Origin: Trebouxia sp. TZW2008
Lineage: Eukaryota; Chlorophyta; Trebouxiophyceae; Trebouxiales; Trebouxiaceae
Direction: 5' to 3'
DNA: 64,000 bases
Assembly (NCBI GenBank): GCA_002118135.1
Contig: BDIU01000211.1
Coordinates: 248,001 to 312,000 of the forward strand
Below the pieces are notes generated by a model, which ran no database searches, was not told where the DNA came from, and saw only the letters and a list, made by a program, of their open reading frames with translations. Made by a program: the position numbers and the translations under genes. Position 1 is the first letter of the stretch; every line of letters begins with the position of its first letter. This document shows, in pieces, positions 3,006 through 59,267 of this stretch.

Positions 3006-6000
3006 ATGGACAAAGATGACGTGCTGAGCTTAGATTTGTCTGCGCTGGCAGCCAGCACAGCTGATGGCTTTGACAGATGCAACAGTGCCCCAATGCCCTT
3101 CATTGCAAGGTAAGCAGCAATTGCTTTCCCCTGGACCAATGCTTGTTGTGAACAATCAACACATGCGCTCATTACAGTGCACGAAAGGGGTCACATGGAT
3201 CCTGTTTACATTTGACAGGAAGACTGCTTCATACAGCTGTATACCTAGCAGGGCATGCTCAGCTGCTGAGCCATCTGCAAACATGTGTTGCACAAGGTGA
3301 TGCAGAGCTGCGTACCACAAGTCTCAAAACACACATGGACATGTTGTGCATGCAAAGTGCGGTTGCTGAACTGTCATGTGGGCGCCAAGATGCATTCATT
3401 CATTTCATTGTGATTGCATGCTAGACAGGCCAAGCAGGTCCAGCTAGGTACATACTTGAGCAATCCACTGTCCCCAACCAGTATGGTCCTGTGGTACCCT
3501 ATAGCATGCATACTGCTTTGTAGGCCTGAACACGTGGGCTCGTCAGGGTCCGTAACTTGAGCATGACAGACTTCTCAATGCGCATCTTGGTATGCTGTGC
3601 TGTTACCACACAATCATTCATTCATTGTTCATGGAAACGCATGTAGGCAGGCTTGGGGTACTCAGCCAGGGATACACACCATAATTATAAGACTGAAATA
3701 CATGCATGTGCCCTGTGGGCTTCAGCATGTGTTTCCATCAGGGTCTCTGTGACAACAGCCTCAACACAGATCACGCCATGCTGTGCTGTCAACACATCAT
3801 TCTGTAAGATTGGGATTGGCCTGCCACCAAGAACCCTGAATGTCAATCTGGACAGCTGCAGGTGGCCAATGCACATCTGCTCATGCTCTGCATGGCAACG
3901 TCCTATGTAATGCTAATCACAAGCATGATGTTAATGCAGTGCATGCATGGTGCTTTGCAGGCCTGAGCATGTGAGTGGATCAGGGCCCCTGAATCTCAAT
4001 CTGAACAAGCTGCAGATGACCAATGCACATGTGCTCATGCTCTGCATGGCAAATACCAAAATCTGACCAAGCTATCTCCACAATTGTGATGTCAACAAAG
4101 TGCGTGCATGTGCCCTGTAGGCCTGAGCATGTGGGTTCTTCAGGGTCCATGAATCTCAACCTGAACAAGCTGCAGATGACCAATCACATGTGCTCATGCT
4201 CTGCAAGACAAATCACAAAATCTGACAAAGCAAGCGCCACAATTGTGATGTCAACAAAGTGCGTGCATGTGCCCTGTAGGCCTGAGCATGTGGGTTCGTC
4301 GGGGTCCCTCAACCTGAACCTGAACAAGCAGCAGATGACCAATGCACGTGTGCTTATGCTCTGCATGGCAAGTCACAAAAACAGACAGACTCCACAACTG
4401 TGATGTCAACAAAGTGCGTGCATGTGCCCTGTAGGCCTGAGCATGTGGGTTCATCAGGGTCCCTGAATCTCAATCTGAACAAGCTGCAGATGGCTAATGG
4501 CGAGCCCAGCACCAGCAATAAGCAGGACAGCCCAAGGACTCAGATGATCAAGGCTAATCTAAAAAAGGTGATCACATGTTCGGCGTTTGACATCAAGAAT
4601 CAAGAGTGACAAGAATGATGTGTAGCAAGCCGTTTTGCATCACTTGGGCAAGCACAGCACCAGCAATGAGCAGGACAGCCCAAGGACCCAAATGATCAAG
4701 GCTAGCCTGAAGGTGACCATCACTTTAGGCATGAGACATCTATAGTACCAGACACTGCTCTGTAGCAAGCCACCTGTGCATGCAGCCCCAAAACTCAGAT
4801 GATCAAGGCTTGCCTGGAAGAAATGACCAGCCATCTTTGCAATCACAACCCACAGTGACATAGCCTAATCTGCAGCAAATATTTCTGCATAACTCGAGCA
4901 TGCATGGTGATGCATAGCAATATGCAGCATAGCCCAACAAGTCAGCTGATCAAAGCTACACTGAAAGGCGAGCGCCTGTTGTTTTTGTTCGAGCATGCAC
5001 ACTGGCACAGGCTAATGTGCAGCATGTCTTTCTGCATAACTTGAGCATGAATGTTGAAGCACCAGCAACAAGCAGGACAGCCCAAGAGCTCAGCTGCTCA
5101 AAGCTGAACTGGAAGGCAACCGCCTATGCTTTTGCCCCAAGCATGCACAGTCGCACAGACTGATCTGTAGTAAATTGTTCTACATCACTCAGGCATGCAC
5201 CAGCAACAAGCAGGACAGCCCAAGGACTCAGGTGATCAATACTAATCTGAAAGAGGTGACCACCAATTTGTCTACCATTCATGCCATGGACTTGTGGTCT
5301 GGTAGAAATGTATATGCTTGTCAGTCTCAGGTGCAAGAAGTGGTCAGATCAGCCAAGTCGGAGCAGTCATGTGGTGGAGACAAGGGGACAAGCAATTTAG
5401 AAACAGCCAATAAGCTATTGTGCTTCACAAGCAGTTGTGTCCCTCTCAGGTGCAAGAAGTGGCCAAGTCAGCCAAGCTGGAGCAGGCACGTGGTAGAGAC
5501 AAAGGGATCAGGATTTCACAAACAGTTAACAAGCAGTTGTGTTCCTCTCAGGTGCATGAAGTGGCCAAGACGGCTGAGTTGGAGCAGGCCTGTGGGGACA
5601 AGGGAAGGGAGGAAGGGAGCTCTTGAGCAGAACCAACATTTGGAAAACAGCTTCAGATCACCACGTATGTGTGTGCTTTGTTTAGGTGCAAGAAGTTGCC
5701 AGGTCAGCCAAGCTGGAGCAAACATGTAGTGGAGACAAGTGAAGGGAGGAAGGCAGCTCTTGAACCGAACCAGCATTTGGAAAACAGCTTCAAACCAGCA
5801 CATATGTGTGCTTTCTTTAGGTGCAAGAAGTGGCCAAGTCAGCCAAGCTGGAGCAGGCATGTGGTGGAGACAAGGGGAGGGAGGAAGGCAGCATGCAACG
5901 CACCAGCACTGCTTTCAAGAACAGATCAGGCTTCAGAGGCGTACGCAGGGTATGCTCCTGGCGCATTTACTGTACGCATCCTCAGTCTATTAGGAATGTG

Positions 6001-9000
6001 TGTATTGCTGTGTCTTGCAGGCGCCTAAAATGACGCCCAACAGCACAGACCTTTCTCTTTTGTCATGGATCCCTGCTTTGCCTTGCACACAACTGCACTC
6101 AGCCAAGTCAAAGATGAAGTGTATCATTTCCTAAAGACAAAGGCTTGTATGGTCTCCTGTTTGCCTAAACATGACCCTGAATGCAGTGGACGTTTGGGCC
6201 TTCCTTTTACTGCCAAACATAGTCCTGCAGTGGACTGTTGTGGTGGTTTCTTTCCCGATTAAAACATGACCCTGAATTGCAGAGGCCGTGGGGCAAGTGG
6301 GCTGCTGAGATAAGGGACCCTAGCCGCACCACCCGCCGATGGCTTGGTACCTTTGATACGCCTGCTGAGGTCAGTCCAAAACATACAGTCTGTCATGCTT
6401 TGCCTGCTGAGGTCAGTTTGAAACATCATGCCTGCCCTGCTGTGCCTGCTCAGGTCACTTCAGGACCATTTGCAAACAGAAACTTCAGCTGGCCTACCCA
6501 ATGATGGCTTGGTACATGTGACATGCCTGCCATGGTGTGCCTGCTGACGTTAAGAAAACTGAACACCACCTGCACCCAACATTGTATCAGCATTGGTCAA
6601 AGCTTGGTGCTACAGGTGGATTGTCGCCTTGAAGTATTGAGCATCAAGCTGCCATGTATTGGGCATCACGAAGCATATGCTTCCATTGTGACATGACAGT
6701 TCGCTGCCGCAGGCTGCCAGACTGTATGATGCTGCAGCCATAGTCATCAGAGGACCAACAGTCAGAATCAACTTCACATATATCCTCACAATGAATATGC
6801 TCATGCCATGCTTTTGCTGCAGGCAGCTAGAGCGTATGATGCTGCAGCCATAGTGATCAGGGGACCAACAGCCAGAACCAACTTCACATATCCCTTGCAG
6901 CTGCTGCACCTCAAACCCAAAAGGGGAAGGGTGAGCCAGCACGACTGCCCATGTGATGACATTTGCTGTTTGTGATGGCATGTGCCGTTTGTCTCAAGGT
7001 CTGCCGTTTTTAATGGCATTTGCCATTGGTGATGACATCTGTTGTCTGTGACGGCATGTGCCGTACGTGCAAAGGTCTGCCGTTTGTCATGGCATTTGCC
7101 ATCTGAGTCAGCATCTACCAGTCGTGACGGGATCTGCCAGTCATTGTGAGATCTGCCACATGTGGTGGCATCTGCCACTTGTGACAGCATGTACGCCTTT
7201 GCTTTCTTGCTGCATCAAGCCAAGTGGAGCACTGAGCTGTCTGAAGTGTGACAATGCAGATGTGCACTGATATTCATCGTGCAGAGATGTCATTCACATG
7301 GGGAAATGGAGGTAGGGCTTTACACACCTAGCACTTATGCCGGCATGTGTAGTCACTGTCACGGTTGTAACAACGAAAGCAATAACAGCAACAGTATTGA
7401 GAATTGTTCATGTGTTGTGCAGAAACATGACCCAGACGGGGAGGTGGAGGTGGGGCTATCGCAGCAACAGCCTCAGCCCACAGTGCCTCCAGCTGTCCTC
7501 AGGCGCGCTCAGCGCTCAGTTGCAAGCCGAGGCTCAGATTTGAGTCAGGCCGAAGGTGAGCAGCACAAACGCTATATATTCAGTATAATTAAGATGTGAT
7601 CTGGTTGACGTAAATCAATGCAGCTCAGCAGTGCAAGCAGTCCTGAGGCGCACTCAGCACTCATCTGCATATCAAGGCTCAGATTTGATTTATGCAATTT
7701 ACACGCACCACATGCGGCGCCCTTAATGAGTCTGATGGCTTCAGAGAACTCAGTACATCCATCACAGAGGTCCTTGTGTTGATGACCTTTGAAGTGGTGA
7801 TGCAAAAAAGCCAGTGAAGAAATGCGTTAATCACTGTATGCAAAATCTCAGCCATCGCGCATCCTGAATCTAGCCACTGCTTGACGTATGTGGTCAGTGT
7901 GCATCTGTTGGCGTCCTGTCTTTTCCTTGTTTCTTTTCGGATATTTGCCTGAGTCGTTGACATTTGCTGGCACACTCATGCACAGCACCAACACAAACAG
8001 CGCAAGGTTCATCGAAGAACTTGTTCTCTTCACAGCGAAGGTGTGACATGATTGACAAGCAAGGAACAATGTCCTGGCCTTATGCAGAAGGTGCAACCAG
8101 GTCACAGTCTTCAGGAGCAGAGGCGACAGCTTCTGCATCAGAACCAGTGGAGGGAATGAGGCACCATGGCATGCTGAGGGCGGGGTATCCCCTGAGTGGC
8201 CAACAGAGCTATGGCAGTCGGCTGGCTTTGAGTCTAGGAGATCTTGACATACCCCAATCCTTAGCAGAAAGGGATGTCTCACAGCAAGAGTTGGCGGGAA
8301 TGTCACCTAGTGTCAGATCAGAACCAGAGACTTTTGGCGGGAGATTGGATGATAGCCTGAGCAGCCTTGGTCATTTTGGCGGGAATGCTCAATTCCCGCC
8401 ACTGAGGATCGTTCCGGCCGGGAACCAGCCTCACATGGTCCACCTGATGCACAACTTGGCGCACTTGTCTGCCAAAGTCAGGCAGCACAGGTCAGACATG
8501 GGTCCTCAGATGAGTCATCCTGCACAGTCACAAGGCGTTCCCATGGTCAGCTTGCCGCAGTTAGATTCTCAGTCTGTCAGCCCCAGCATGCAGCCAAGGG
8601 TGACCCCTGCAGACGGCCTTGGGGTCCCCAGGGCTCAGCAGGGGAAATGTCCCTTCCCAGTTCAATCTCGCTACCCAGCGGGTGCTCAGCATGCACAGCA
8701 GGATGTGAACGTGCACAGGCTTCAGTCACACTCTGGACAACCACACTCTGGACAGCCAGGCTTGATGTTTGAGCAAGTCATGCTGCTGTCAGAAAGCCAT
8801 GCTGCAGAGAGTTGCAGGGTAAGCCTTCTGACAACAGTACTCAGCATAACAGTTTTTATACAGATCTGAGTGGACAAAATGCAATCCACATAATATTACA
8901 CCAAGCTGCTTTACGGGGTTTTCATGTTTGGTCTTTGACCTTGGTGCAACTCATGTTGACCAGTCAAACCGTTGGTTATCAACTTTGCAGCAACCTATGT

Positions 9001-9481
9001 CTGTGGAGGCCAGACATGGTACTACGGTCGCAACATTCACACGCCCAGAGCAGGACCCAGTGGTAGTCACATGTCCATTGAAGCACAGTGATTATTGAGG
9101 AATATGTGCTTTATGGATCCTCATGTACACACACCTGCTCTTCCTTGCCTTCTGTCCTCCACCAAAATCGCCTCAACCCCATCTTTTCCTCCCGCAAGCT
9201 CGGCATCCCTCCCTGATGGCACTGCACGTCTGACATTGTAGTTGATTGGGTTTCAGGCGCTAGAGTTGAAAATCTCTAAGAAGAATTTACGACTGTGACT
9301 TTGTTAGGGGAATTGGCTAGGTTGTAGGGTTGACACTTTTAAGGTCTTGTTGTGCTTTCTGTGGTGGGAATCAAGACCTGATGAGTTTAATGCAGGGTCC
9401 CTGCCCCACCCTGTCTGCTTCTTGCCCGCGGCCCTCAGGGGATGTTGATGTGTACTTACTCACTTACTTGCTGACTGACCA

Positions 9482-9512
<31 letters not shown>

Positions 9513-9535
9513 GACTTACTTACTTACTTACTTAA

Positions 9536-9580
<45 letters not shown>

Positions 9581-12500
9581 CACTCAACAACCCTTACTTA
9601 TTGGGCTCAAAGGCCTTGCTAGGTACATTCACCAAGCAACTGTCTTCAAGCAAATGAGTCTGTTCACGAGCTGAACCACGTCAAAAGCACTGATCCAAGG
9701 GTTGATGTGTGAGCAACTTTAATGCACTTTTACCCATGATGAGACTTCCCCTTGTCATTGATGCCTGCAGAGGTCAGATGCGGCATCATTACATCAGGTG
9801 GTGCAGAGCCCAAAGGTCAAGAACATGAAGCAAGCAACCTCTGCATGTCTTGATTTTGAACAAATCCCTCCAGTAGTAGAACAGATGCCACTCCTGAGCG
9901 CATTCATCTTTGGCATGTGTGCTTGCAGAGGTCAGATGCGCCGTCACTGCATCAAGTGGTACAAAGCCCAAAGGCCAAGAACATGAAGCAAGCAGCCCTG
10001 GCATGTCTTGACGTTGAACAAATGCCAATGAGTTCTGGGTACATTGGATCTTAGTCCTGAGGCCAACGAAAGCCTTAATTTGAAGCAACACCATTGGTTT
10101 TTTGATGTTGACAAGGCTTATGGCTGGCACTGCAGACATGACATGCGCCGTCATGACATCAGGTGCTACAAAGGCCAAAAGCATGAAGCAAGCAGCTCCC
10201 GCATGTCTCAATGTTGAACAAATTCTGGTTTCAACTGCATGAATCTTTGGCATGTGGCCTGCAGAGGCCAGATGCGGCATCATTGCATCAGGTGGTACAG
10301 AGCCCAAAGGCCAAGAACATGAAGCAAGCAGCGCGGCGGCGGCGCAAGAGCATGGACATGATGTTTGGCCAGCTTGACAGAGGTGAACACCCTGCAATGC
10401 ATATTGTGGTGAAGCATACGCTGCAATGCATGTTGTGGCGAAGAATACGCTGCAATGCGTATTGTGGCGAAGCAATGCATGTTGTGGTGAAGATACACTG
10501 CAATGCATGTTATTGCGAAGCATACACTGCAATGCGTGTTGTGGCGAAGCATACGCTGCAAGGCATGTTGTGGCGAAGCATACACTGCAATGCATGATGT
10601 GGTGAAGATACACTGCAATGCATGTTATTGTGAAGCATACACTGCAATGCGTGTTGTGGCGAAGCATACGCTGCAATGCATGTTATTGTGAAGCATACAC
10701 TGCAATGCGTGTTGTGGCGAAGCATACGCTGCAATGCATGTTGTGGCGAAGCATACACTGCAATGCATGTTGTGGTGAAACATACACTGCAATGCATGGT
10801 GTGGTGAAGCATGTTGAATTGTTGATGCCAACACACTGCTGTCCTTTCTTGAGCACATGAAAGAACACAAAGGTTGTGCCTTGTGTAAGACAGTGGTAGC
10901 CTGCGTGAACAGAAGCAGCCTGAAAAGGTCTCTTCTGACTGTTCCTCTGCACTCTTCGTTTGACTCTTCCAGAGGGAGTTTGGCTCAAGCTTGACACCCA
11001 GTCTGGAACTCACTGCTTATGTATCAGTGTTGTACAAGCTATTCAAATCATGCTGGATGATCAGACGTCTGCCGTGCACAAGGCATTTGATGCACACGCT
11101 GACACCCAACATGAAGCTTGCTGCTTGCATAACAATGTTTCAACAATGTGTAATGACCCATGAATGTGTGTCAAGCAGATAGCATGCTTCACGACCTGCT
11201 GGGAAGAGCAAGCAGTGGTCAAGCGCAAGCTGCAGTTGCTTCTGGAGAATGCAAGATGGAGACAGATGAAGCTCAGGCCATGACTAATGGGGCTGGAGCT
11301 GCCTCAGTAGCTGAGATCTCTAGGATGCAACTGCCCAACAGGTTGACGCAACCTGGGCTCAATCTCGCTGCGCCAAGGTACAGGAGCAGAAACGCATGAT
11401 TACATTACGCGTGTGCTTGTAGCCCATTGTATCACATGATCACTAGTGACAGCACCGTTTGACACATGTGAGCACATGAGCCCTTTAAAACAGTACAGCC
11501 TTGCACTCTTATCGCACACTATAGTGCACCACAGAACAAGATGACACATACGACCCTTCTGCAATGCCTCAATTTAGTTCTGGGTCAAATGCACAAGCAG
11601 TCAAGCAATACTGATCTGCAATATGACCTGGATCTGGGTCAAATCTGCACAAGCTGTCAAGCAGTACTGATTTGCAGTATGACTTGGGTGCACAAGAGCA
11701 CACTTAGGCTGCAAAGGACAGCAGTTTGCATTGATATCAAGCCACTAAATGGCATGTTGAGTTATGCTCTGGTGACAATGCCTTCAGTAACAACAGCCTT
11801 GCCAGCCTGAAGCATGCGAGAAGATCAATCTCATGTGTCAGCCCATTGGTCCAGTCTTTCATGTTGCTACACTACAGCTTAGGCAAATTCACATGGAATG
11901 GCCATCATGCATGAACATTCATACTGAGTCAGCAGACCTTGAATCACATCAGCTTTTCTGCTAGCTGGCATCTATTCAAAACAAGTCATGCACAGCATGC
12001 AGCTGATTGATGTTGCTTGGGTGATGTGCCTGTGTGACAAACACCTAATGCTTGCTTTGATCACCTGCAGGGTGCCAACTGTCAAGCTTGAGCCAGCTTC
12101 TCAGTCAACCACCATACATGTGAACACTGAGTCAAGCCCCACCCACCAGCCACATGTCATGTATGACTCACCCATGACTCATGACCTCATCAGCGCAGTG
12201 CACGAGCCAAGCAGTGCGCCTGAGATGCCCAGTCGCGTGGGTCATTTGCCAAGTCACATGGACAGCTCAGCTGTCAGAAGTTCAGTGCCAGAGGGCTTCA
12301 GTTGGGCTCCCCTTGATGAAGGTGTGGGTGGCGTCAAGGGGGGCTACCCTGGGGCCTCCCTTGAGATGGGTCTGGTTGGGGTCAAGGGCATGTACACTGG
12401 GGGCCCAACTTTGGGGCTCATGCCGCAGGCAGATGCACAGGCACTAAGCAAGTTGAGAGGACACCCCGCATGGGACGCACAGGTATTGATTGATTGAATG

Positions 12501-17765: not shown

Positions 17766-20700
17766 ATGATCTGCTATTGCACAGCTCAAAGTTGTTTCCC
17801 ATTGTGCTTTGCAGTCTTGGCGCAAAGCCCAATTTCATACCCAGGATGCACACCCCTACAAGAGTCACAATTTGCAACAGACCCAGATTTCTCAATATTT
17901 TATTCTGTTTTTCAGCAGTATGGCATCAACAGTTTGCTGGAAAATCTGAAAGAACCAGCGACCTTGTTCATTCTTCACAATGATGAGAGATCAGCTCCTG
18001 CTCACAATGTAACACTTCAAGACTTTGCAGACACTGGTGTCTTTCCAGCGGCATTCTACTATCACATTGTTCCCAATCGTGCCTTCCTGGTGAGTCACTC
18101 TGATGAGTTGATGATGACAATTTTAGCAAAAGTGCTAGGTGTGCGTGGCACCAGTCTTTTCTTGCCAGGCTGGCTTGTTCTGAGCATCATGGAATGGACA
18201 TCTAATGTTCAACTTTCAAAGGTCAAACAAAACGTATTGCACATTATTGCACAGCAACGCTCATAGTGACAGACAAGTTGCTTCAAGATTGTCCTCTAAT
18301 ACACAGCTGAACAGCAAGTGAGTCTTGCATACAGCAACCATGCATTGAACAATCTCATTGCAACATACATGGTGCTGTGCGCATTGCAGGAGCCAGATGA
18401 ATTTGAAGATGGCGAAGTGCTGACAACACTGTACCCGGGAGCAAACTTGACTGTTTTTGTGGAGGACTTCAACTCCACAGAAAACATCATTCTTGAAAGC
18501 TATGGCGCTGATGTTGCCATTGACACCCCTCCAATCTATGCCTGCAATGTAAGTACAGCCCAACTTCAAGAGGGCACTGTTGCTTGATGTCGCTGTCAGT
18601 ATGCTCTGTTGAGCCACCATCTTCAAAGGGTTGGCTTGCATTTGCGTGTCATACATCTTCTTGGACCACAGTATAGCAGATGCTGCATTCATTCACACTG
18701 TACGTCGCAGTCAACTGGCAATGTTGCTGAGCTGAAGAGAGCTATGGTTTTGATACTCATCATCACCATCTGTTGTAATTTGTTGTTGTCTTGACACTTT
18801 TGCCGAATGTGATGCGATTGTAAATGTGTGGAAGTGATGGCAGCTTCCTGCCGCCAGCAGCATTGCCCTTTGACAACAGACTTCTGAGGCAAAAGAGTCT
18901 CAGTTCTAATTGGGAATTTTCCATGCATATCGCGTTAGACTTAGATGGTGCATGTGATGCAGTGTATGATGTGCAAAATTGATGGCAGCTTCCAGCCGCC
19001 AGTAGCCTAGCCCTTCGACAACAACGCCTTTGTATATATCTGCGCTAATGTCTTGTTGTTGCTTGAGCACCAACGCTGTCCTGTCATGTATTGAGTGTTG
19101 TCAAAATTGAGAATGTTCGCATGCCTTGCAATGCAGATCCTTGTTGTGCATGCAATGCAGTTGGTGATGTATACGACGGCGCCGTATAGCCGCCAATAGC
19201 ATTGCCCGTTGACAACAGCCTGCTGGGACACAAGACTGAGTTCTGCCTTGGGAACCTTTTCATGCCTGGGGTGCCGGCTTTTGGCGCTTTGTGCAATGCA
19301 ATTGATAATGATCCATGTGGTGCAGTTGGTGATATATTGAACCCATTGCAGCTTCCAGTCGCCAATAGCGCGGCCCTGTGACAACAGCCTGCTGGAACAG
19401 AGATTCCAATGTCACCTTGAGAACCTCCTCACGCATGTTTGTCTAGACTTTGATGGAGCATCTGATGTCGTGAGTGTGCTGCAGTTGACATGAAGTAGCT
19501 CATGATTGTTCTGTCATGCAGTTGGTGATGTATGGAACCGATGGCAGCTTCCGATCACCAGTAGCACTGCCCTTTGACAACAGCCTGCTTGGACAGAAGT
19601 TCCAGTTTTACCTCTGAGAACCTTCTACTGCCTGTTGGTGTAGACTTTGACCGTGCGTCTGGTGCAGTGAGTGTGCTGCAGTCAATATGATGCAGCAGAT
19701 CATTGTTCTGTCACGCAGTTGGTGATGTATGGAACTGATGGCAGCTTTCAGCCGCCAGTAGCACTGCCCTTTGACAACAGCCTGCTGGGGCAGAAGTTTC
19801 AGTTCTACCTTGAGAATCTTCTCATGCCTGGAGGCGCATCGTTGCCTGCCCAACTCGTGATTGATGCTGTGGGTGCTGGGGAGACAAACTCCATTGCAAG
19901 CGCATTTGATGATGCCATCAAAGGCGGATATGAGCAGGAGTTGGTGCCCATACTGCAAAGGGTGAGTCAGCAGATTTTGTTGTGCGCAATGGCACCGACC
20001 AACACGATTTCCCTCCCTCTATACAGCATGAGATCGATGCTATTGCTGCTTGTGATTGATGCTGTTGGTGCTGGGGAGACAAACACCGTTGCAAGCGCAT
20101 TTGATGATGCCATTAGGAATGGAGAAGAGCAGCAGCTAGTCCCCTTGCAAAGAGTAAGTCAGCAGACACTGCAATGCACCTGCCAGTATTCTATTCAACC
20201 CCCCACACAGATTGTGGTTGGTGCTGCTGCTGCTTGTGACTGATGCTGGGGAGACAAACACTATTGCAAGCGCATTTGATGATGCCATTGGGAATGGAGA
20301 CAAGCAGCAGCTAGTGCCCTTGCAAAGGGTAAGTCAGCAGAGCCTTGACACTGCAATGCACTTGCCATTATTCTGTTCAATATTCTGTTCAATCCTCCAC
20401 ACAGCTTGTGGTTGGTGCTGCTGCTGCTTGTGACTGATGCTCAGACAAAGACCAGTGCAAGCGCGGTTGATGATGCCATCAGGGACGGAGATCAGCAACA
20501 GCTGATCCCCATGTTGCAAAGGGTAAGTCAGTAGGGCTGTTGCCCTGGACAATGGCATCTGTCCATGATCTGTCATTGCGCTAGTGCTTTCTGCATACAG
20601 CTTGTGACTAATGTTGTGGGTGCTGGGGAGACAAACACTGTTGCAAGCGCGGTTGATGATGCCATCAGCGAAGGATGTGAGCAACAGTTGGTGGCGCGTG

Positions 20701-21333
20701 CTGGAAAGGGTAAGTTGGCAGTTGTTGTTTTACAACGCAGCACCTGTCATTGCTCTAGTGCTTTCTGCATACAGCTTGTGCTTAATGCCGTGCGTTGTGG
20801 GGAGCTGAGCACTAAGTGAAGCGCTTTGAGTGATGCCAATAAGGGCAAGTCCACAGAGTCTGGTTTGCCATATGACACCTGTCCTTGCTGTGTTTGTTCC
20901 TCCGTATGGCTTATGGTCGATAGCGTTGCTGCTGCGGAACTTAATTCAACAATGCCATGAAGGCTGACACTTCAAGATCCAAGCAGTAGTGATCAAATTA
21001 ACAAGCAGGTTCAATCTCAGCATGTTATAACCTGACCCAAAAAAGCATAGCCAGGAAGAGTTTTGCTGCATCAGGACCTTGCAGCTGTTAATGCTTGACC
21101 TGTGCTCCTGACAAACGCAGGCTGTCACACTGCCTGAAGGCTTTCAAGCTTTGGCATCAGTTGCAAATGCAATGATTGTGCAGACCTCATGCAGCAATCT
21201 GAGGCCTCTCATTCAGTCACTGTACAAAGTCTTCCCAACTGTTGGCAGGCTTGGACTCAGCAATGCTCAGCTTGTGCAAGTGCAGCAAGCAGACCCTCAG
21301 CTGTCATCATGCATCTTGAGCAGCATTGCCTGA
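17766..21333 (+). CDS. fasciclin (FAS1)-like secreted protein, 4 exons
   Basis: Predicted 312 residues. Exons: 17766-18089, 18390-18548, 19719-19961, 21121-21333, all phase 0. The N-terminus (MICYCTAQSCFPLCFAVLAQ) looks like a signal peptide, but an earlier first exon is possible, because TTTGCAG near 17810 could be an acceptor. Residues 20-160 show FAS1-like features: DPDFSIFYSVFQQYG, ATLFILHNDE, LQDFADTG, FYYHIVPNRAF, LTTLYPGANLTVFVED. FAS1 domains act in cell adhesion or the extracellular matrix. The C-terminal part, with TNSIASAFDDAIKGG and a conserved Cys region, is unassigned. Exon 3 is flanked by long arrays of its own decayed edges on both sides. The FAS1 call rests on motif memory; the exon structure is better supported than the name. 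Confidence 0.62.
18840..20830 (+). repeat. two-sided exon 3 edge array in the FAS1-like gene
   Basis: Five decayed copies of the exon 3 start lie upstream (near 18840, 18980, 19170, 19340 and 19525), sharing GATGGCAGCTTCC, CCGCCAGTAGC and TTTGACAACAGCCTGCT. Four to five copies of its end plus donor lie downstream (near 20045, 20225, 20430, 20600 and 20780), sharing GGTGCTGGGGAGACAAACAC and GCATTTGATGATGCCAT. The real exon is 19719-19961. Unit spacing is about 150-190 bases. Confidence 0.88.
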
Positions 21334-32700: not shown

Positions 32701-33367
32701 GCTGCTCTTGCAGCAGAGCCATCTCGAAGCTATTTTGTGACTGTGTACACGAATTGTCTCAAAAGAAAGGAGTGTCAAGGGTTCAATGCTGTGCTTCAGG
32801 AAGTTTTGCTTGGGGTTCTCCCAGGCCGAGTAGATGCCTTTGCCAAGACTCTCTTGAAAGCTGCTTCTGCACCATCGCAAATGCATGTCGTCTGATGCTT
32901 CATAACACATGATGGTAAAAAGCTTTTGTTGACTGTTGTCAAAAAGTGTTGCATTGGTTCAGGAAGTCTTGCTTGGGCTGTTCCCAGGCCGAGTGGATGC
33001 GTTTGCAAAGACTCTCTTGAAGCATAAGCAGCACCTGGTCAACTACATGATCTTTCTGCGGGTTACCCCATTTTTGCCGTCCTGGTTCATCAACACTGCT
33101 TCTCCTGTTGTGGGTTTCCCTTTCAGGGAGTATATCATAGGCACAACCGTTGGGCTGCAGCCTCTGAATTTCATATTGGTGCAAGCTGGTCAAACCTTGG
33201 GACAGCTGCATAGCTATAGAGACTTGTACAGTATATGGAACATAAGCAAGCTTGGCCTGTGTGCTGTTTTGGCAGTTAGTCCTGTGCTGTATCAACGATT
33301 GTGCACTAGAGCTCCGACCAGAAAGCGAACTTCTTTCAGAGCTGCTCGAAGGACTAACAGCTTGTGA
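29772..33367 (+). CDS. TMEM41/VMP1-type VTT-domain membrane protein, 6 exons
   Basis: Predicted 331 residues. Exons: 29772-29834, 29908-29979, 30449-30626, 31064-31200, 31738-31878, 32963-33367 with phases 0, 0, 1, 0, 0. The order follows the VTT (SNARE-associated/DedA) family: a first transmembrane helix (AMLAVLYCVALLLLLSLFWQ), a helical luminal stretch (TNFQEAQAVKQTLALY), the VFMIPGAIFINVLAGSLFG helix, LIACVSTVGAGTNYWLARLL, then RVTPFLPSWFINTASPVVG and QAGQTLGQL. A basic cytosolic tail ends the protein. TMEM41B/VMP1 relatives are ER phospholipid scramblases needed for autophagy and lipid traffic; the role here is inferred. Introns 2, 4 and 5 carry decayed copies of adjoining exon edges. Confidence 0.87.
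30297..32890 (+). repeat. exon-edge copies in the TMEM41-like gene
   Basis: Acceptor-edge copies: of exon 3 at 30297-30420 (long, still encoding LPPSPSKNKPTAWSY), of exon 5 at 31549-31620 (VFMIPGAILIGMLAGALF), and of exon 6 at about 32797-32890. Donor-edge copies of exon 5 lie at about 32128-32205, 32325-32405 and 32462-32535, sharing ATTGCTTGTGTCAGCACTGT. A 52-base intron block starting TACGGGTAGGCTTTCCC near 32193 is repeated once directly. Confidence 0.88.
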
Positions 33368-41793: not shown

Positions 41794-41830
<37 letters not shown>

Positions 41831-47495: not shown

Positions 47496-47526
47496 GACAC
47501 GGGTTACTGCTCTTGATTGAACAAAC

Positions 47527-50401: not shown

Positions 50402-51932
50402 CGCAATGCAGTGCTTTCATTCAGCGAGCAAGGCACGGTTCCGATCGCTCACCTGCCCTTGCGTGGACTCGGCGTCCTGCATGCTTCAGATGAGACCCCA
50501 GGCCAGGCCTATGAAGCCTGGCGATCAACGCAACACTGCTGCCTGGGCTTGGCGAAACTACTTGAATCTAGATTGCTTGTTGCGTCTGCGTTCAGCGTTC
50601 GCCGCGTCGGGTTCTGCCGCGAGATGTTGAGACCTAGTCGGGGAGTGCATGAAGAAGAAGACTTTTTTAATCTGCAAGACTCGAATGGCAGCTGGCAGCT
50701 CAAATTCTGCATTCCTGAATGGTTTTGACACAGGCAACCAGACTTGTTGGCTGGCCAGAGTCTGCAATCTCTCTGAGTTAAAGTGTCTTACGTACGTGCA
50801 GAGAGCTTTCATCAGCTGTATAAGGTGTCAAGCAAAATAGCCTTGGGGTTCTTGCAAGGCATCGTGAAGCAGGGCAAGAGTAAATGCCGGTGACAGTTAC
50901 TGTACTACTGTAGTAACTGTTCAATACAAACATGAAAGTCTATGCATGCAATGTTGTAAAATCAAAGGAACGTGACACAAAGACAAACAACTTTGAACAT
51001 CACTGTCATTCTGTACACCAGCAGCATCACTGTTTGAAAAGAGTTGAAACATGATTTCGGCAGATGTATGGCATTTTGCAATCACTTGGTTCCGTTGGCA
51101 AGGCCAACATGAGTGCTAACCTCCTTCAGAGACTTGCACGAGCATGCTGAGTGGCGACTTCATATTGCATGCCTTAAGGGTGCAGGTATGACAATGCCAA
51201 GTCAAGTGCAGGCTTGTTTCAAGCCTTCTGTAACGTAATAAGGGTCAAAAACGGGTGAGACCCCAGCCTGTGGTAACAGAGTGAGATTGACAACAGTGGC
51301 TTGGTGCTGGAAGGAACGCAAGACCAAGCATGCGCAGCGGAGTCATCAATGGTAAGCCTAAACACATTGGCCTTGGACAGCCGCAGCCTGATAGTATTCA
51401 GAAGCAAGCTATGCTCAGACACCTGTTGTCCTTACCACATCTAGGGTATAGCATGGAGCACACTGCTACACGTAGACCTGATCTGCGTCAAATCAGAAGC
51501 AACACCTGTTTGCAAGCTGATGGCAGCCGATAAAAGGAGTTGCAGCCAAGCACGAATACATCAGCAAGTCAGCTAGTCTAAGATAGGGACATCAACAACC
51601 CATGGCACAAGCGCTCTGTCACAACCCCGCTTGCTATAGTCTCAATTCACAAAACCCTATGAACTTCACTAACTGATCACATATGCTCAGACTTGTACGT
51701 CAGCATTTAGCCAACAGCCCAGATTGTAGCCAACTGACCTGTCACAAACTTTGATCACGGCTCAAAGTTCATGATGCACTGGTTTGACCCATTATCCTCC
51801 TGCACAAGCAAAACAGGATCATATGCATGATAAGTCACGGACATAGACCTACATAGACAAAGGCACTAACACAGATGCAGGTACAGACACAGGCACAGGC
51901 ACAGACAAGGGCACAGGCACAGACAAGGGCAA

Positions 51933-52010
<78 letters not shown>

Positions 52011-52099
52011 TGGCACAGGCACAGGCACAGGCACTGGCACAACCATGCTGTCAGGCACAGTACAGGAAGTAATGTCCATACTGCTTGTTTGTCTGTCAC
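50402..52099. other. no confident gene; includes 3' flank of the FAD gene
   Basis: Upstream of the CFAP97-type gene a GC-richer plus-strand frame (50406-50728) is open but unassigned. Frame 51330-51533 (+) is likewise unassigned. The right part, next to the FAD gene stop, is filled by a hexanucleotide repeat. Confidence 0.35.
51866..52045. repeat. (CAGGCA)n hexanucleotide microsatellite
   Basis: About 165-180 bases of CAGGCA units with ACAAGGG, CGG and CTGG interruptions. It lies about 55 bases beyond the FAD gene stop codon, so it is probably in the 3' untranslated region, read there as (TGCCTG)n. The Val-Pro and Gln-Ala repeat frames over it are artefacts. Confidence 0.95.
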
Positions 52100-55000
52100 T
52101 TACAGTGATTGCAGATGCATACAGTAAACAAGGGTACAAAGCCCACCAGCATGCTGCCACAATGCCACACTAGCTGCTAAGGGCTCATCAAGGACCTTAA
52201 CTCCAAAGTGCTGACAACTGCATGCGACCATGTGTTTACGACGCAGGCTCAATAACAACTCTACGGAGTCAGCCATCTGATTTGATGTCTGCCTGAAGGC
52301 AAAGACAAAGGCACTGAAGCATGGTGAAGTGAGAGTCTCGGTGTGAGACACCTTGTCATGTGATCCCACCTGAGGATTTGGGCTCTGACTGTCTTGCCAC
52401 AAAGACTTGAAGGTGGGCTTGTAGATATATCGCTCCTTGTCTGCAGCTGGAGCATTGTCATTGGCTTTTGCATGCATCACCTTCACACGCAGCGGCCGCT
52501 CCTTTTCATACCTGCAGACTACAAAATTCTTGTCGAGGCAACACGCAGCGGGAGAAATGCAAAAATTCAAGGCCAAAATATGAGTCAAGTTCTGGATGTC
52601 ATGAACTGTTCTCTTGTGAATTGTTCTATGTCTGGAGCTGGAGCATCGACATAGGCTTTTGCATGCACCACCTTCACACGCAACGGCCGCTCCTTGTCAT
52701 AACTGCAGCAAGCAAGCAATCAAGCTTATAGGTCACTCAGAACTGGCAGCAAATCAGTCTATGAACCCCATACATATAAGTATGGACCCCATATATATAA
52801 GTGCATCAGACATGAGCGGGCTTGTAGATGTGCTCTTGGTTAATGTGACGATGCATGTGGCCTGCTACGCTGCATGTACTTGTGTGCGCTTCTTCACGTC
52901 GACACTTTCATTGAATGGGTAGACATATTGCGTGATGGGTATACCAACCTTCTCAGCGCTGCTTCACAGACTCCCTGCTGCTTGAGATGCCACGCAAGCA
53001 CGACAGCATCCTCTACAGCCAAGCACAGTCCCTGACCTGCAGAAGCATTGCAAATGTGAAATGGACCATGCATTCATCAGTGCCAATGTGCTCTCTGAAA
53101 GATTACAGGAGCCCCCGATGCCATCCAAGCATCAATGCATCTTCTACACTCAAGCACAGGCCCTGACCTACAGAGGCATCACAAATGCGAGGTGGACAAC
53201 CTCTGCGTGTCAAACTGCAATGGCCAACATCAATCCTGCTCAGGATTTTCAAAGGCACTGTCCTACATAAACCTTGGCATGACCTGGTGTTCTCACGGGC
53301 ATAACAAATGTGGTTCCTGTTTCCAAACTAGCATTCATACTTCTGATGCTGACTCAGAAGTATGATGTGACTGGATGCCGGGTGACTATATGCATGTTTA
53401 GAGCACTAACAGTGACAGCACAGGCTGTGGGTATGTGTTTGACTTGAAGATGCATATCAAATATAGGTCAGCAGATTCTAGAAGGTTTACATGAGCAATG
53501 AACATCCTCTTAGGTGGGGCTGTAATGTTCAATGTGGTTGCGGAACTGTTCACAGGCAGAGGGTTGCAGTTGCAGCTGCCTCGATGGAGGTTTTGAGATA
53601 GCACTGATCACGCTAAAGCTGACTGACAAATTCTGAGCAGCATGGCATCATGGCGTGGGCAGGAATGCAGAGAACAGAAGCCCACAGAGCATACAAGCAG
53701 TTGCATGCTGTTCAAGATCAAAGGAATGACATTACGTTTGGAAACAGGATCTTTGGGCACATTCACGTGTTGAGCGGCGCATGAAGCCCAAAGAACTGAC
53801 CGTTTGGTATGGTTGCATGAGCCGCGTCGCCCAGAAGCGTCACTCTTCCTCTTCCCCAAGCAATGTCTGAACTCTGATCACCAGCGCCTGATGTTTCACC
53901 AGAAGTGGATTCTGAAGGTTGATTGCCTCCCTCTGCCGCTTGACCAGCATCAGCTGCTTGAGTGTGTCCATCTGGTGTGTCTTGCTGGGCTAACAGGTCC
54001 CCATTACTAGCTGTGCTGCCTCCAGCTGGGTTGAATTTTGCACCTTTGCCGTCCATATCTAGATTGCTTTGATCTGAGCTGAAGCCTGCCAGCTTGTTGT
54101 TTTTATTGTGCTCAGACTCATCACCTGCCTTTTGCTTGAGTTTCAGCTCAGCAAGCTTATCTGGCAAGCTGTTCCTCGTCTGATTCTCCTTTTGATCATT
54201 CTGCTCCTCAGTTTGACTTGCCTGTTGGTCACTATCAGTCTGATCATTCTTGGGCTGATTGGCCGTTTGAATTGGCTCTGCTGCTTTGCGCATTTTAAGT
54301 TCAGCCACCCTTGCTATAGGATTCAGCGCCTCTGCGCTAGGGTCTGACTCACCCGCCCTCCCAGTAGTGCCATTGGTGCTAGTTCCAGCGCCTCCATTGC
54401 TTTTTTTGGCTGTGTTTTTGTGACGATGTGTGAACAAAGGATTGTGACCCAAAGGGCGCATGTACAGGCCATGCTGGGTGACTGTGGAAGGCTCAGTGTC
54501 TCGCACAATATCCATCAAGCTCGCAGGGAAATCAGCAAACACCTTGGCTGCATTCTGCAAGCAAGACATGAAATCACAGTCAAAAACCTAGACCTGCCAA
54601 GTGTACAAGATGTGTGTTGTCAATGTCATGAGATTCTGTTCTGTGGGTCGATGTAAAACCCAGCAGCCGCGCTAGCTTTGACAGAGACAGACAAAACCCA
54701 ATTCAAGTGGATAAACAGACAAACGCCTAGTGAAAGAAAGCAGAATTGCCACCAAAAGCCATCGAGACTAATTACCTGCAGCGCTGAGGTCTTTCCCTCT
54801 GTGTCTCCTTGCACACATTTGACGCTTCTGCAATCTGGATCAAAATCAATGCCAGCAGCTTTCACAAATTCAATAGGAGCAGATAAGACCCAGCTCCAGG
54901 GTCTGTCCTTGGTTTCTTCTACTGTCCCCATTCTAAACAGCATGCCAAAGCGCTTGTTGTTGTCCAATGGCCAGGGCTTGCCATACAACCTTGCACACCT

Positions 55001-56255
55001 GCATGCAAAATATGAATGGTTGCAGAAGGACAGGGAACATGGTACAGTACGTGTACTGAAAAGTACTGGCTCCAGGGTCTGTTCTTGAGGTGTCCTCGTC
55101 TTGAACAGCAGGCCCAAGCGCTTGTTGTTGTCCAATGGCCATGGCTTACCACACAACCTTGCACCCCTGCCTGCAAAACATGGTCTGGTCAGAAAAGCAC
55201 AGGGAAGGTTCTGTAGTGGTGACATTCAGGATACTGGTTCCAGGGTCTGTCCCTAGTTTCTTCCACTGTTCCCATTGTAGACAGCATGCCAAAGCGCTTG
55301 TTGTTGTTCAGTGGCCATGGCTTGCCATACAGTGTATTGGCTCCAGGGTCTGTTCTCGGTTGCTCATCTATTGTTCACATGTTGAAAAGCATGCCAAAGC
55401 GTTTGTTCTTGTCCAACGGCCAGGGGTTGCCGTACAACCCGGCAGGCCGGCATGCAAAGTGTAAAGTGTTGCAGAAAAGCAGCTATTGTGTGACAGGATT
55501 TCCCGTGGACACTGCTGCTTCAGGGTCTTGAGCTTGGTTTCTACCAATGCCACCGTGATGTTGAACAGCACATCAAAGAAATTGTTGTTGTCCAATGGCC
55601 TGGGGTCGCCAGATAAACTTGCAGGCCTGCATGCAAACAGGGAATGTTGCCTTATAGCAGTTAAAACCCTGCAGACTAACTGGACATATTGTGACAGCAA
55701 TAAAAGTTCTTGGTAGCAAGTCTAGCTGCAACCAGGCCTGCAATTGGGTAAGAAGACAACACGACAGGCCATAATGATGCCCGCAAAACAATTTGAGGAT
55801 TTCAGAGAAAATGGCAGTGTGACAAATTATTGAAACTGGAGCAGAACACTCACATCAATGCTGGTGATTGAACCTTTGCTACAGTGTCAGTCAGGCTGCT
55901 CTAGAAAGGAAGAAAGGTAAGAACAAAATGTCTATGTCTTCAGGCGTCATAGCAGGAGCATCTATGAGTAGAAGCAGCTTGGGATTGCTGCTCTGAAAGC
56001 ATCAGATAGAAAGGGACTTACCCAGTTGTGGGGTGTGGCATGCCTTCACGCCATGCAATCCTAGCACGCCACATCACGCTCCCCTGGACAACACAAGTGC
56101 TACTTACACAGCTGTACAACACTAAATACGACAATGACAACAGCAATGATAACAACAGTGACCCCCATCACGCTCCCCTGCACAACACGAGTGCTGTTTA
56201 CACAGCTGTACAAACACTAAATACAACAATGACAACAGCAACAGCAACAATAACA

Positions 56256-56294
<39 letters not shown>

Positions 56295-59267
56295 AATTTC
56301 ATGTTCTGGTATAGGTGGCAGGTGGGACTGGCACAAGTCTGGTGTTGAGGCTGGAGTACTTTTGGTGTTGCAGTGAGGACATGTGATGTTTAAATTTTGA
56401 GCTTTAGATACAACACTGTCATTTTTTATGCCATGTTCTGCAGGCTTCAAGTGTGATTAGCTGGGCAGCTGCATTTCTGCCATGCTCGGAATCAAGAATG
56501 TGGATGTGACTCAGCTGTAAGTTTGCACACCAGCCAAATTTATAGCTGAGTCAAATTGGTGGTGAGCAGAGTCAGAACTCACCACGAAGTCAGGTGGGCC
56601 ATCATTCAAGCATTGGGTGCGCACTTTGGAAAAGTAGCCGTCAGCTCCAACTAGCAGCTTTGCACGCACAGGCGCTTGACCATCCACAAAGTGCACAGTG
56701 ACACCTGTGCTATCCTCCTCATAATGGCTCATCTACACAAAAATGCAAAATTGTCTGGTGTTGTGGCATAATATCATCGCTGTCTTCTTGCCATTCGCTC
56801 ATTGAATCACACAAAACAAACCAATAATCAGCTCCAACTAGCAGCTTTGCACATACAGGCGCCTGCCATCTGTGAAAGGCACAGTGACGCCTCTGCTGTC
56901 CTCCTCATAATAGCTCATCTACACAAAAATGCAAAACTGTCTGGTGTTGTGGCATAATATCATCGCTGTCTTCTTCCCATTCGCTCATTGAATCAAACAA
57001 AACAAACCAAAAATCAGCTCCAACTAGCAGCTTTGCACATACAGGCGCCTGTCCATCTGTAAAAGGCACAGTGACGCATCTGCTGTCCACCTCATAGTGG
57101 CTCATCTGCACAGAGAATGCAAGGTAGGAGGAAACTGCATATCCAAGCACAGCACCTTGGTTGTGCTCCTGTGACTACGTGAAGCACAACAGTGAAATTG
57201 GAACATTTTCACATGTATGGAAGGAGGTATCATCTTTGAAGTGGAATCAGAACTCAGCATCTTTGCATATGCAGGCGCTCGACAATCTGTGAAGTGTACA
57301 GTAACGCCTTTGCTGTCCTCTTTGTAATGACTCATCTAACAAAACAGCACAAACGGATATACGTCACCGCAATCAAAGTCTGGTTTGACAGATTATCAGC
57401 ATCTTTGCACGCACAGGGAGCTTGGCTAGAGTTTGTGACTGGCCATGATGTAGTGCAAAAAACCACAACTATGACTCACCTGTCTGCCAAATTGGACTGT
57501 GTCTTGAGGCAAGTGGCAATGCAAGATGGCATGAAAGATGGATTGCCTACCAGCTGGGCAAAAAATCATGACTGGCCATGAAATCGCGCAAGAGCTTTTG
57601 GCTGCAACCCCGTGTCTGCCAAATTGGGCTGTGTCTTGAGGCAAGTGCTGACGGAGCAGGTGCCAATTTCTATGCCAGCCAGCTTGGCCAAATCAATCAC
57701 TGGCCATGTTGTAGTGCAGAAAAGCTCAACTGTGACCCACCTGTCTGCCAAACTGGACTGTATCTTAAGGCATATGGCAATGCGAGATGGCTTGAAAGAT
57801 GGGTTGCCTGCCAGCTTGGCAGAACCTCAATGACTGGCCGTGATTGAGAGCCATTTCTTTGGATGTAACTTACCTGTCTACCAAATTGGACTGTGTCTTC
57901 AGGCAAATACTCATGGAGCAGGTGCCGGATTTCATGCCATCCAAGCACAACAGCACGTTTCCCATACTTCTTCTCCAAGGCGTTGATTTCAGGCTGTCCG
58001 CCTGCAGGGTATGATGCCACCAACGTCCCATCCTCGTCAATTATTTCAGCCCCTCTGCTTGTGATTCCTTTCTCTTTGCACCTGCAGTTGTACTGACACA
58101 TTGAGGACTCAGGACTGCTGAGGGGAAAGGTAGTTCCTTGCTATTTGCCTGCATGATACGATGCAAACAATACCCCGTCCTTGTCGATTGGCTCTACTCC
58201 TCTGCTTGTGGATCCTTCCTCTCTGCACCTGCACTGTACTGACATATAGAGATCAAGGTATCAGCACTATTTGGGGGCGAGATGATCTCTTGCTGCTTGC
58301 CTGGAGGGTACGATGCAACCAGCGTGCCATCCTCGACAATCAAGTTTACCCCTGTAAGGACTCCTTTCTCCCTGCAGTGCACTGAAACGTTCAGGTATCA
58401 GGACTGTTGATGGGCTTGAAGAGTTTGATATCTTTTTCAATTCTTTGTATGCAATCAACAACGTGTACAATCCTGATAAATCATTTTTGTCTCTTTTTGG
58501 AAAAACGGAAAAGAAAAAAGTGCAGCCGGGATGCGGTTTTCACAAATGACTCTGAGCCTCTGCTTGCGACTCTGTTCTCCCTGCACCTGCAGTGCACTGA
58601 CATGTTGAGATACAGGGGCTGTCAAAAGACAGGTTGTTCCTTGCTTGCTCACAGTCAACTCTGCGACTAGACCTGCCTAGCACTGATGCAAAAGCGACAA
58701 CATAGATGAGCACATTGGGCTCATGCTTCAGATATAGTCCTATGATGTAGGGGCTGGAAGACTCTAGCAGTGGCTGCAGAGAGCACAGCATTTTGGAGTG
58801 GGAAAAGCTTCAGCTTGACTTTCCTGACTGCAAATGTTTCGGTCTGCCTCTTGCCGCAACTCAGCTCGCTCAGAAAAGAACATTGGGCTTTATTCTGACT
58901 AGCAGTATGTGGCGATCTCGTTCAAGTGCATTGCGAAATACCTTTCGAGAAGTTCGGGGTCGATGGCCTCCATGGCATGCTGAACGTTCGCGTGCATCAA
59001 CACGCCTGAACCTTGCAGCTTGTAGCGGCGAAGACTTTCAAAGACCTGCAGACGCCATTGCAGACTCGCCATGTCGTCTTGGCGTCCTCGCGCTGGCTGT
59101 AGCGGGCACTGCAAGTATGCGCGAGCAGCTTGCTGTTGCTGGCATACCTGAACCTTGACCTGTCCCTTGAACGCCGATTGCACTGCAGCGGCAACTGCGA
59201 GGCCACCAGGGCCACCTCCGATGACTGCGACGTCAGTGCCACACGGAGTTTGCTCCTCGATCGCCAT
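52100..59267 (-). CDS. FAD-dependent monooxygenase (UbiH/zeaxanthin-epoxidase-like), 10 exons
   Basis: Predicted 653 residues. Exons: 59267-59148, 59045-58942, 58081-57874, 56732-56583, 56083-56022, 54998-54776, 54554-53801, 53036-52949, 52511-52370, 52210-52100; every phase matches. Motifs of class A flavin monooxygenases in order: VAVIGGGPGGLAVAAA (dinucleotide binding, residues 14-29), RHLLHEYLPEDTVQFG, SHYEEDSTGVTVHF with LLVGADGYFSKVR (DG motif), SVMWRARIAW, GRVTLLGDAAHATIPNGQG (GD motif, FAD ribose/pyrophosphate) and LAVEDAVVLAWHL then RRYEKERPLR. The reaction is an NAD(P)H- and O2-dependent hydroxylation or epoxidation; the substrate is unknown. No clear transit peptide. Between the central part and the GD motif sits an unusual ~194-residue polar insert. 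Almost every intron carries decayed exon-edge copies. Confidence 0.86.
52640..53170 (-). repeat. acceptor-edge copies of FAD exons 8 and 9
   Basis: A copy of the exon 9 start (plus-strand GCATGCACCACCTTCACACG, then CGGCCGCTCCTTGTCATA, CTGCAG) lies near 52658-52711, upstream of the real exon 9 at 52511. A copy of the exon 8 start (CAAGCACAGGCCCTGACCTA) lies near 53110-53175. Confidence 0.85.
55080..55660 (-). repeat. acceptor-edge copies of FAD exon 6
   Basis: Upstream of exon 6 (54998-54776) are four decayed copies of its first 60-80 bases, near 55175-55100, 55335-55245, 55460-55380 and 55635-55560. All contain the block encoding PWPLDNNKRFGML or a close variant, and most follow a GCATGCAG-like acceptor. 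Some carry a TGTTCTTGAGGT or CAGGGTCTG block that also matches the exon interior. Confidence 0.88.
56155..57335 (-). repeat. acceptor-edge copies of FAD exons 4 and 5
   Basis: Exon 4 (real start 56732) has three decayed upstream copies near 56920-56840, 57105-57015 and 57335-57255, each encoding MSHY-DS--VTV-F and then a KLLVGAD-like block. One copy of the exon 5 start (CATCACGCTCCCCTG) lies near 56160-56185. Confidence 0.88.
56229..56290. repeat. CAA/CAG-rich trinucleotide run
   Basis: ACAACAGCAACAGCAACAAT followed by about ten CAG units, in an intron of the FAD gene. Confidence 0.9.
57465..58610 (-). repeat. two-sided exon 3 edge array in the FAD gene
   Basis: Around the real exon 3 (58081-57874): three acceptor-edge copies upstream, near 58236-58140, 58376-58265 and 58596-58500, with cores GTGCAGAGAGGAAGGATCC and GGATGGCACGCTGGTTGCAT. 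Three donor-edge copies lie downstream, near 57765-57735, 57640-57610 and 57515-57475, with the core AGACACAGTCCAATTTGG and GACAG followed by GTGGGT or GTGAGT. Confidence 0.88.

Follow-up and report, generated by a model that had tools for sequence, protein, structure and literature searches.

By what route do introns lengthen, and can the origin of the added sequence still be read from the genome? Intron length differs by orders of magnitude among genomes, and its sources other than transposons are, to our knowledge, poorly known. The question is raised by a 64,000-nucleotide stretch of the genome of the green alga Trebouxia sp. TZW2008 (GenBank assembly GCA_002118135.1, contig BDIU01000211.1, forward-strand positions 248,001 to 312,000), referred to below as the window and numbered from its first base, in which the introns of several genes carry arrays of partial copies of the neighbouring exon. 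An earlier note, made from the sequence alone, had described more than 40 such copies and a strict rule for their placement, had attributed them to repeated local tandem duplication of segments straddling splice sites, and had proposed a self-comparison of the window and a test for enrichment at junctions. The analysis reported here indicates that local duplications, arising repeatedly and tolerated at the intron side of exon-intron junctions, have probably driven intron growth and left rows of decoy exon edges behind. Such arrays make intron growth visible at many ages, and the source of each added piece can be read in the adjacent exon.

The window, with a guanine plus cytosine (GC) content of 49%, is part of a draft assembly of 68.5 Mb in 527 contigs, and the closest named relatives of the proteins encoded by its FAD, TMEM41-like and AP2 genes come from Trebouxia spp., which places the window in the Trebouxia lineage of lichen algae. 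According to PMC11523091, six published Trebouxia genomes measure 63-74 Mb with a GC content of 49.6-51%. The proposed self-comparison (self-BLAST, E up to 1e-4) yielded 84 same-strand repeat pairs in the window, all local, with every pair at most 3 kb apart and none found at a greater distance; the two inverted pairs both derive from a CAG/TGC run. Exons of the FAD, TMEM41-like and AP2 genes were located by tblastn with proteins of relatives, and their exact edges were set by hand from the matches. These three genes were chosen since the earlier reader had named them, and four CCT genes from other contigs were fetched blind to arrays; the seven are called the homology-fixed genes. An array is said to straddle when it crosses an exon edge, and a decoy is a partial copy that aligns to the real edge.

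In the three named genes, 17 of 20 arrays straddle a splice junction, and 42 decoys could be aligned to real exon edges (16 in FAD, 6 in TMEM41-like and 20 in AP2), so that both the presence of exon-edge arrays in these genes and the count of more than 40 copies stand. With 12 further decoys in the four CCT genes, the total is 54 over the seven genes. When exon-edge copies were searched for in each gene plus or minus 1.5 kb, all 33 exon-start copies lay in the intron immediately upstream and all 17 exon-end copies in the intron immediately downstream, as read on the coding strand; the three extra matches were short inverted ones of 16-24 bp. Of 50 acceptor edges, 14 have at least one copy, as do 9 of the 50 donor edges, and arrays make up 41% of intron bases, figures for seven genes of which three were nominated for having arrays. 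The units, of about 80-230 bp, span existing junctions and include an intron part; the offset within straddling arrays has a median of 141 bp (10th to 90th percentile, 92-207), and the divergence of decoys from the real edge is 5-34%. The earlier claims of intron growth, decoy splice sites, copies of different ages and occurrence on both strands are supported.

Such growth may be pictured as follows. The Trebouxia-lineage genome would keep generating short local duplications with offsets of about 80-230 bp, presumably by slippage or template switching. A duplication within an exon would break the protein and mostly be lost through selection, and one that crosses a junction would be nearly harmless if splicing still used the copy that runs on into the remainder of the exon. 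The surplus exon edge and splice site would then turn into intron, giving decoy acceptors upstream and decoy donors downstream, and such duplications could be fixed as near-neutral changes. The correct copy may be discriminated by exon definition, with acceptor and donor recognised across the exon. Under tandem duplication the strict placement of the copies is expected, because only the last acceptor copy is continuous with its exon and donors are the mirror image. All 50 same-strand copies obey the rule, which therefore supports tandem duplication; as proof of a special process it was dropped, because tandem geometry imposes it and it gives no independent evidence of such a process. Repeated local duplication across splice sites is likewise supported; plain tandem duplication does not account for those copies that are spaced from the edge they resemble.

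The AP2 gene, on the plus strand, was assembled from eleven exons between 3006 and 13398 with the aid of two Trebouxia proteins (exon 11236-11341 comes from a gene finder alone), and six of its nine arrays cross an exon edge. Exon 4435-4568 is copied on both sides: six decayed copies of its acceptor and start, in units of about 153-159 bp, occupy the upstream intron (3504..4499), and five copies of its end and donor follow downstream (4499..5269). Copies of acceptor and exon start also precede exon 5821-5949 (four copies, 119-135 bp unit, 5319..5908), exon 6823-6930 (a spaced copy, 6705..6891) and exon 10265-10382 (three copies, 9762..10332), and one copy of the end of exon 7423-7555 lies downstream of it (7491..7688). 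In the AP2 protein of Trebouxia C0004 (P0136), every segment is present once. A shorter array on the same strand, of 2.3 copies of 42 bp (6360-6457), sits on the donor edge of exon 6283-6369 and consists of copies of GCCTGCTGAG|GTCAG; it lies outside the BLAST array list and hence outside the counts.

The nine exons of the FAD gene, on the minus strand from 59269 to 52370, were fixed by Trebouxia, Coccomyxa and Myrmecia proteins, and all seven of its arrays cross an exon edge. Exon 57874-58083 again has copies on both sides, three of its acceptor and start (57984..58645) and three of its end and donor (57438..57943). The acceptor and start of exon 56583-56732 recur three times in a 187-bp unit (56641..57352), the start of exon 54776-54997 four times (54893..55637), and the acceptor and start of exons 56018-56083 and 52946-53031 once each (56069..56241 and 52986..53197). 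A spaced copy of the acceptor and start of exon 52370-52513 completes the series (52438..52708), with homology beginning from the acceptor CTGCAG.

Homologous proteins define six exons of the TMEM41-like gene on the plus strand, from 29772 to 33364, and four of four arrays cross an exon edge. A copy of the acceptor and start of exon 30449-30625 lies at a 152-bp offset (30274..30571), exon 31738-31878 has a copy of its acceptor and start upstream (31373..31792) and three copies of its end and donor downstream (31800..32550), and a spaced copy of the acceptor and start of exon 32960-33364 (32792..33021) is set apart by a 96-bp spacer that does not clearly resemble its flanks. For this gene a transcript-like product is available: P0121, a 331-amino-acid protein from a 1,260-bp contig, holds each exon once and skips the decoys, the copy at 30274..30571 being among those missing from it. 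Its identity to the window exons is 84-100% per piece, and 92-100% in five of the six pieces, so that it has the look of a transcript, from the same strain or one very close to it; the contig is too short for a 3.6-kb gene with its introns. The source code of P0121, 'lgn', presumably denotes the Logan assemblies of sequencing runs.

The sequence of the decoys resembles that of decaying non-coding DNA. Over 47 decoys, 448 differences were counted in 3,092 aligned exon bases, falling on codon positions 1, 2 and 3 in the numbers 134, 91 and 223. Single changes comprised 149 synonymous and 149 non-synonymous ones, where random change would give 26% synonymous, and this synonymous excess is ascribed mainly to constraint on the real exon. 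Eight stops occur in 998 codons, with about 10 expected under neutral change by our own estimate, and 24 of 26 indels are frame-breaking, not being a multiple of three; a coding role for the decoys was rejected on account of these stops and indels. Among copies that cover the splice site of gene-finder exons, AG is kept in 36 of 44 (32.5 expected from identity) and GT in 27 of 35 (25.2 expected), and no purging of decoy splice dinucleotides was detected in this set, retention being about as identity predicts. Decay of the decoys is thus close to neutral. A splicing puzzle remains, in that one real acceptor is chosen behind several similar decoys that mostly keep their AG, and such natural arrays make the rules of splice-site choice testable.

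To extend the survey beyond the window, 18 loci were picked by place, 17 on other contigs and one elsewhere on the contig of the window; these are the unselected loci. Together with the window and the CCT genes they provided 91 listed arrays in about 252 kb. Local same-strand repeats account for up to 35% of a sampled locus, four of the 18 loci have none at threshold, and matches between loci comprise 50 same-strand and 46 inverted ones. Genes in these loci were called by a supervised gene finder whose training set comprised long open frames and CCT exons, and its agreement with the latter is accordingly no independent check. This finder misses exons that homology shows (four of six in TMEM41-like, three in FAD), which makes its straddle counts low in those genes, and it also calls some decoys as exons; exons wholly within an array were removed before counting. 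Where tested, the sampled gene models were recognisable: glutamate dehydrogenase and ribosomal protein uL5 (fused into one model in locus L005), ABC_tran, a methyltransferase and EMP70. In the four CCT genes, seven of ten arrays straddle an exon edge; in a TCP1/CCT gene (L020), which we take to be CCT5-like, two upstream copies of a 114-bp unit retain CAG|GTGGA and the third is more decayed. Junction-straddling arrays are present on many contigs, genome-wide.

The excess at junctions was judged against units placed at random in the gene after collapse of its arrays, leaving out events confined to an exon or taking in a whole one. Introns are no longer than a few units, and random placement alone therefore predicts straddling of 33% (gene-finder set) to 44% (homology-fixed genes). 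Against this expectation, 47 of all 73 genic arrays straddle (24.4 expected); the unselected loci gave 26 of 41 (13.5 expected, P below 1e-4), and the homology-fixed genes, the reader-nominated ones included, gave 24 of 30 (13.1 expected, P=4.5e-5). For the CCT genes alone, 4.9 straddling arrays are expected and the difference is not significant. Part of the excess is due to detection, because the real exon copy is constrained and diverges more slowly, and straddling pairs therefore stay detectable longer. When the odds of straddling are doubled in the null, P becomes 0.024 in the unselected loci and 0.014 in the homology-fixed genes; when they are tripled, 0.22 and 0.12. With exons masked at detection, 27 of 53 arrays straddle overall (16.0 expected), 14 of 20 in homology-fixed genes (8.0 expected) and 14 of 29 in unselected loci (8.6 expected, P=0.02), the last value rising to P=0.38 with doubled and 0.76 with tripled odds, so that in these loci the enrichment holds on the raw counts and loses significance under both corrections together. 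Among arrays with a best identity of at least 85%, 22 of 28 straddle (8.2 expected), and 12 of 14 in unselected loci (4.2 expected, P=0.0016 at doubled odds), although these identity classes are biased too, exon constraint keeping straddling pairs more alike. One array (L017 4866-7149), a coding repeat ending 6 bp beyond its exon, was mis-scored as straddling; without it the counts are 46 of 72 overall, 25 of 40 in unselected loci, and 21 of 27 and 11 of 13 in the two identity classes. An apparent clustering of the exon share of the unit near one half differs from a uniform distribution (Kolmogorov-Smirnov P=0.006) but not clearly from the placement-based expectation (P=0.19, with 59% observed vs 35% expected between 0.4 and 0.7), and no claim is made from it. 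Overall, junctions do carry an excess of arrays, about two-fold before any correction, and detection bias accounts for part of it; that duplication itself prefers junctions is plausible but unproven.

Several results weigh against recurrent, tolerated tandem duplication as the explanation. With exons masked, array density is 13.5% in introns and 4.7% in intergenic DNA (9.9% and 4.2% in the unselected loci), the 'intergenic' bases including missed genes and being possibly constrained; a two- to three-fold richness of introns is not predicted by uniform neutral duplication. Plain tandem duplication also predicts no unrelated spacer. Nevertheless, among 13 pairs picked for a spacer of at least 15 bp, ten have a spacer that resembles neither flanking sequence (z below 2 for each), high-identity pairs with spacers of 33-111 bp included, and one (L004) is clearly tandem. 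The copy of FAD exon 52370-52513 is 90% identical and has a 111-bp spacer that matches neither flank, and similar spaced copies at TMEM41-like exon 32960 and AP2 exon 6823 start at the acceptor or no more than about 10 bases from it. Of 72 decoys, 32 have clear homology in the intron outside the splice signals (z at least 3) and 34 do not (z below 2), and such homology is missing in 10 of 31 decoys with an exon identity of at least 88%. The third codon position of decoys changes at a rate of 0.217, compared with 0.089 at position 2, slightly over the two-fold neutral expectation, and no array passes the threshold in a fifth, out-of-sample CCT gene (L024). Register in multi-copy arrays and short intron parts probably explain some of the missing intron homology, and the high-identity pairs with spacers point to templated insertion, filler DNA or intron sequence replaced at a later time. 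Junction-bounded copying, considered on account of bimodal intron-side extents, was set aside with part of the pattern put down to register in multi-copy arrays and a few spaced pairs left unexplained.

Some of these observations would suit an alternative in which duplication is aimed at junctions or gene bodies, which would act as mutational hot spots through transcription, R-loops, exon nucleosomes, splicing intermediates or microhomology at TGCAG acceptors. We regard this as possible though unlikely. In its favour, straddling is most frequent among the arrays of highest identity, the excess persists with exons masked, introns are denser in arrays than intergenic DNA, and some copies begin at the acceptor or a few bases away. 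Other points count against it: the identity classes carry the bias of exon constraint, the masked excess in the unselected loci fades once the odds are doubled and that of the CCT genes alone is not significant, the intergenic comparison suffers from possible constraint and incomplete gene models, and the exon share of the unit is not clearly off random placement. In its fuller form the idea appears rather doubtful; it holds that, at a junction hot spot, an exon edge with its splice site (60-150 bp) is copied into the intron next to it, in some cases as a spaced copy starting right at the 3' splice site, and that intron length in the whole lineage is driven in this way.

Alternatively, the arrays could be ordinary intronic minisatellites that arise at random, those touching an exon being noticed because the exon part stays recognisable. 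The high straddling rate under random placement agrees with this, as do the longer visibility that a constrained exon copy confers on straddlers and the purely intronic arrays, six of 30 in the homology-fixed genes. The observed straddling of 63-80% nonetheless exceeds the prediction, the highest-identity arrays are the most junction-bound (although constraint also keeps straddlers more alike), and with the odds unadjusted the enrichment stays after exon masking, which leaves random minisatellites improbable, if not remotely so.

Recurrent local duplication is also to be distinguished from real alternative or tandem exons, which would add segments or form mutually exclusive isoforms; the earlier note had itself named ordinary internal exons as the finding that would overturn it. 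Decoys often retain AG or GT, and in an ABCF-like gene (L009) three additional 63-bp copies are read in frame by the gene finder. Exon duplication and mutually exclusive exons would, however, be expected to give whole-exon copies with a conserved frame, and the copies found hold the exon edge alone, with the rest of the exon outside the array and with stops and frame-breaking indels inside. Mutually exclusive exons would further be expected in transcripts, and in the one gene where this can be judged, TMEM41-like, the decoys are missing from P0121; the AP2 protein P0136 also has each segment once. Real exons are accordingly very unlikely, being contradicted directly in TMEM41-like and more widely by the stops and indels. 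An assembly artefact from collapsed or mis-joined repeats, conceivable in a draft of 527 contigs, can practically be dismissed, given copies that differ by 5-34% from the real edge and in frame, occur on many contigs and always obey tandem geometry in seven genes.

Other genes in the window, also named in the earlier note, repeat the pattern. The families of three were confirmed by Pfam matches, each with an array on a gene-finder exon edge: MT-A70 (PF05063; 36133..36296, minus strand, acceptor edge of exon 35965-36187), 5-FTHF cyclo-ligase (PF01812; 43489..43716, plus strand, acceptor edge of exon 43687-43774) and CFAP97 (PF13879; 48864..49103, minus strand, donor edge of exon 49071-49166). 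The cyclo-ligase exon scores 10.1, below the cut of 12, and its array was left out of the straddlers counted at that cut. In the region described as 'FAS1-like' (18807..20838, plus strand), two large arrays (18807-19831 and 19851-20838) do lie on the edges of one gene-finder exon, and the family name is unconfirmed, with no Pfam match on a rough exon join. An intronless open frame of 496 amino acids (14428-15915, minus strand) stands among intron-rich neighbours, and in a gene that by eye is histone H4-like (59858-60289, plus strand) the open frame continues through an apparent intron between ...GVLK and VFLENV.... Simple repeats in the window include TACT x33 at 9453-9584, a CAGGCA-type array at 51851-52041 and TGC x12 at 41795-41830.

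A few sampled loci show arrangements of their own. In L022, an inverted repeat of 84% identity (747-924 and 1205-1384) occupies the introns on either side of one CCT exon and differs in this from the same-strand arrays. A 147-bp-offset array at L008:7460-7731 joins two gene-finder exons over a predicted 92-bp intron, and is a candidate for intron gain or a gene-finder error; it is the sole such case in the unselected loci, and no array joining two neighbouring exons was found in the homology-fixed genes. At L009:7702-8253, in the ABCF-like (ABC_tran) gene, the three upstream copies are called as 63-bp exons in frame, separated by 50-55-bp gaps, and could be nascent tandem mini-exons or simply young decoys. 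The array at L017:4866-7149 is an in-frame coding repeat of 84-bp period in a long exon that by eye is coiled-coil-like, where in-frame duplication within an exon is tolerated. The gene-finder protein of L002 resembles, by eye, a retroelement polyprotein with reverse-transcriptase-like sequence.

Among the papers listed by full-text searches of an open-access library, subscription papers not being covered, no description was found of a systematic enlargement of existing introns by junction-crossing duplications. The main texts of two Trebouxia genome papers (PMC12712428 and PMC11523091) contain the word 'tandem' 0 times and 'intron' only in one reference title, and 'tandem repeat' occurs 0 times in the searched text of an Asterochloris paper (PMC6652019). 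As the origin of new introns, tandem duplication is an accepted model (PMC3443670 and PMC4974935). There too the splice signals come from a local tandem duplication whose surplus turns into intron, but the outcome is a new intron, whereas in Trebouxia existing introns appear to have been lengthened repeatedly at either end and no gain has been demonstrated. Hellsten et al. in 2011, for ATP2A1, and Gao and Lynch in 2009 reportedly obtained a new intron from a duplicated exonic AGGT segment. In fission yeast, Zhu and Niu are said to have described in 2013 two genes with multiple 24-bp exonic duplications and an intron across them; several tandem copies are likewise taken up by an intron there, from exonic AGGT units rather than from units of about 80-230 bp over existing junctions. 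PMC4974935 describes one duplication over an intron-exon boundary in the potato RdRp gene, with one new intron and a cryptic donor. That duplicated segment also spans a boundary, but it is a single case that produced a new intron, while the alga has multi-copy arrays in many genes and introns unchanged in identity.

Two further systems are recognisable in part. Intronic minisatellites consist of head-to-tail units that grow by local duplication and decay neutrally; multi-copy arrays of head-to-tail units occur here as well, but these units contain an exon edge and splice site, and some copies are spaced. Introner elements are interspersed, create introns and are present as near-identical copies at many loci; they share with the present arrays a systematic genome-wide change of intron content, and differ in that every exon-edge copy found here adjoins its own junction. 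The building blocks are thus known, and what is new, as far as could be found in the literature, is the scale and the systematic lengthening of introns that already exist.

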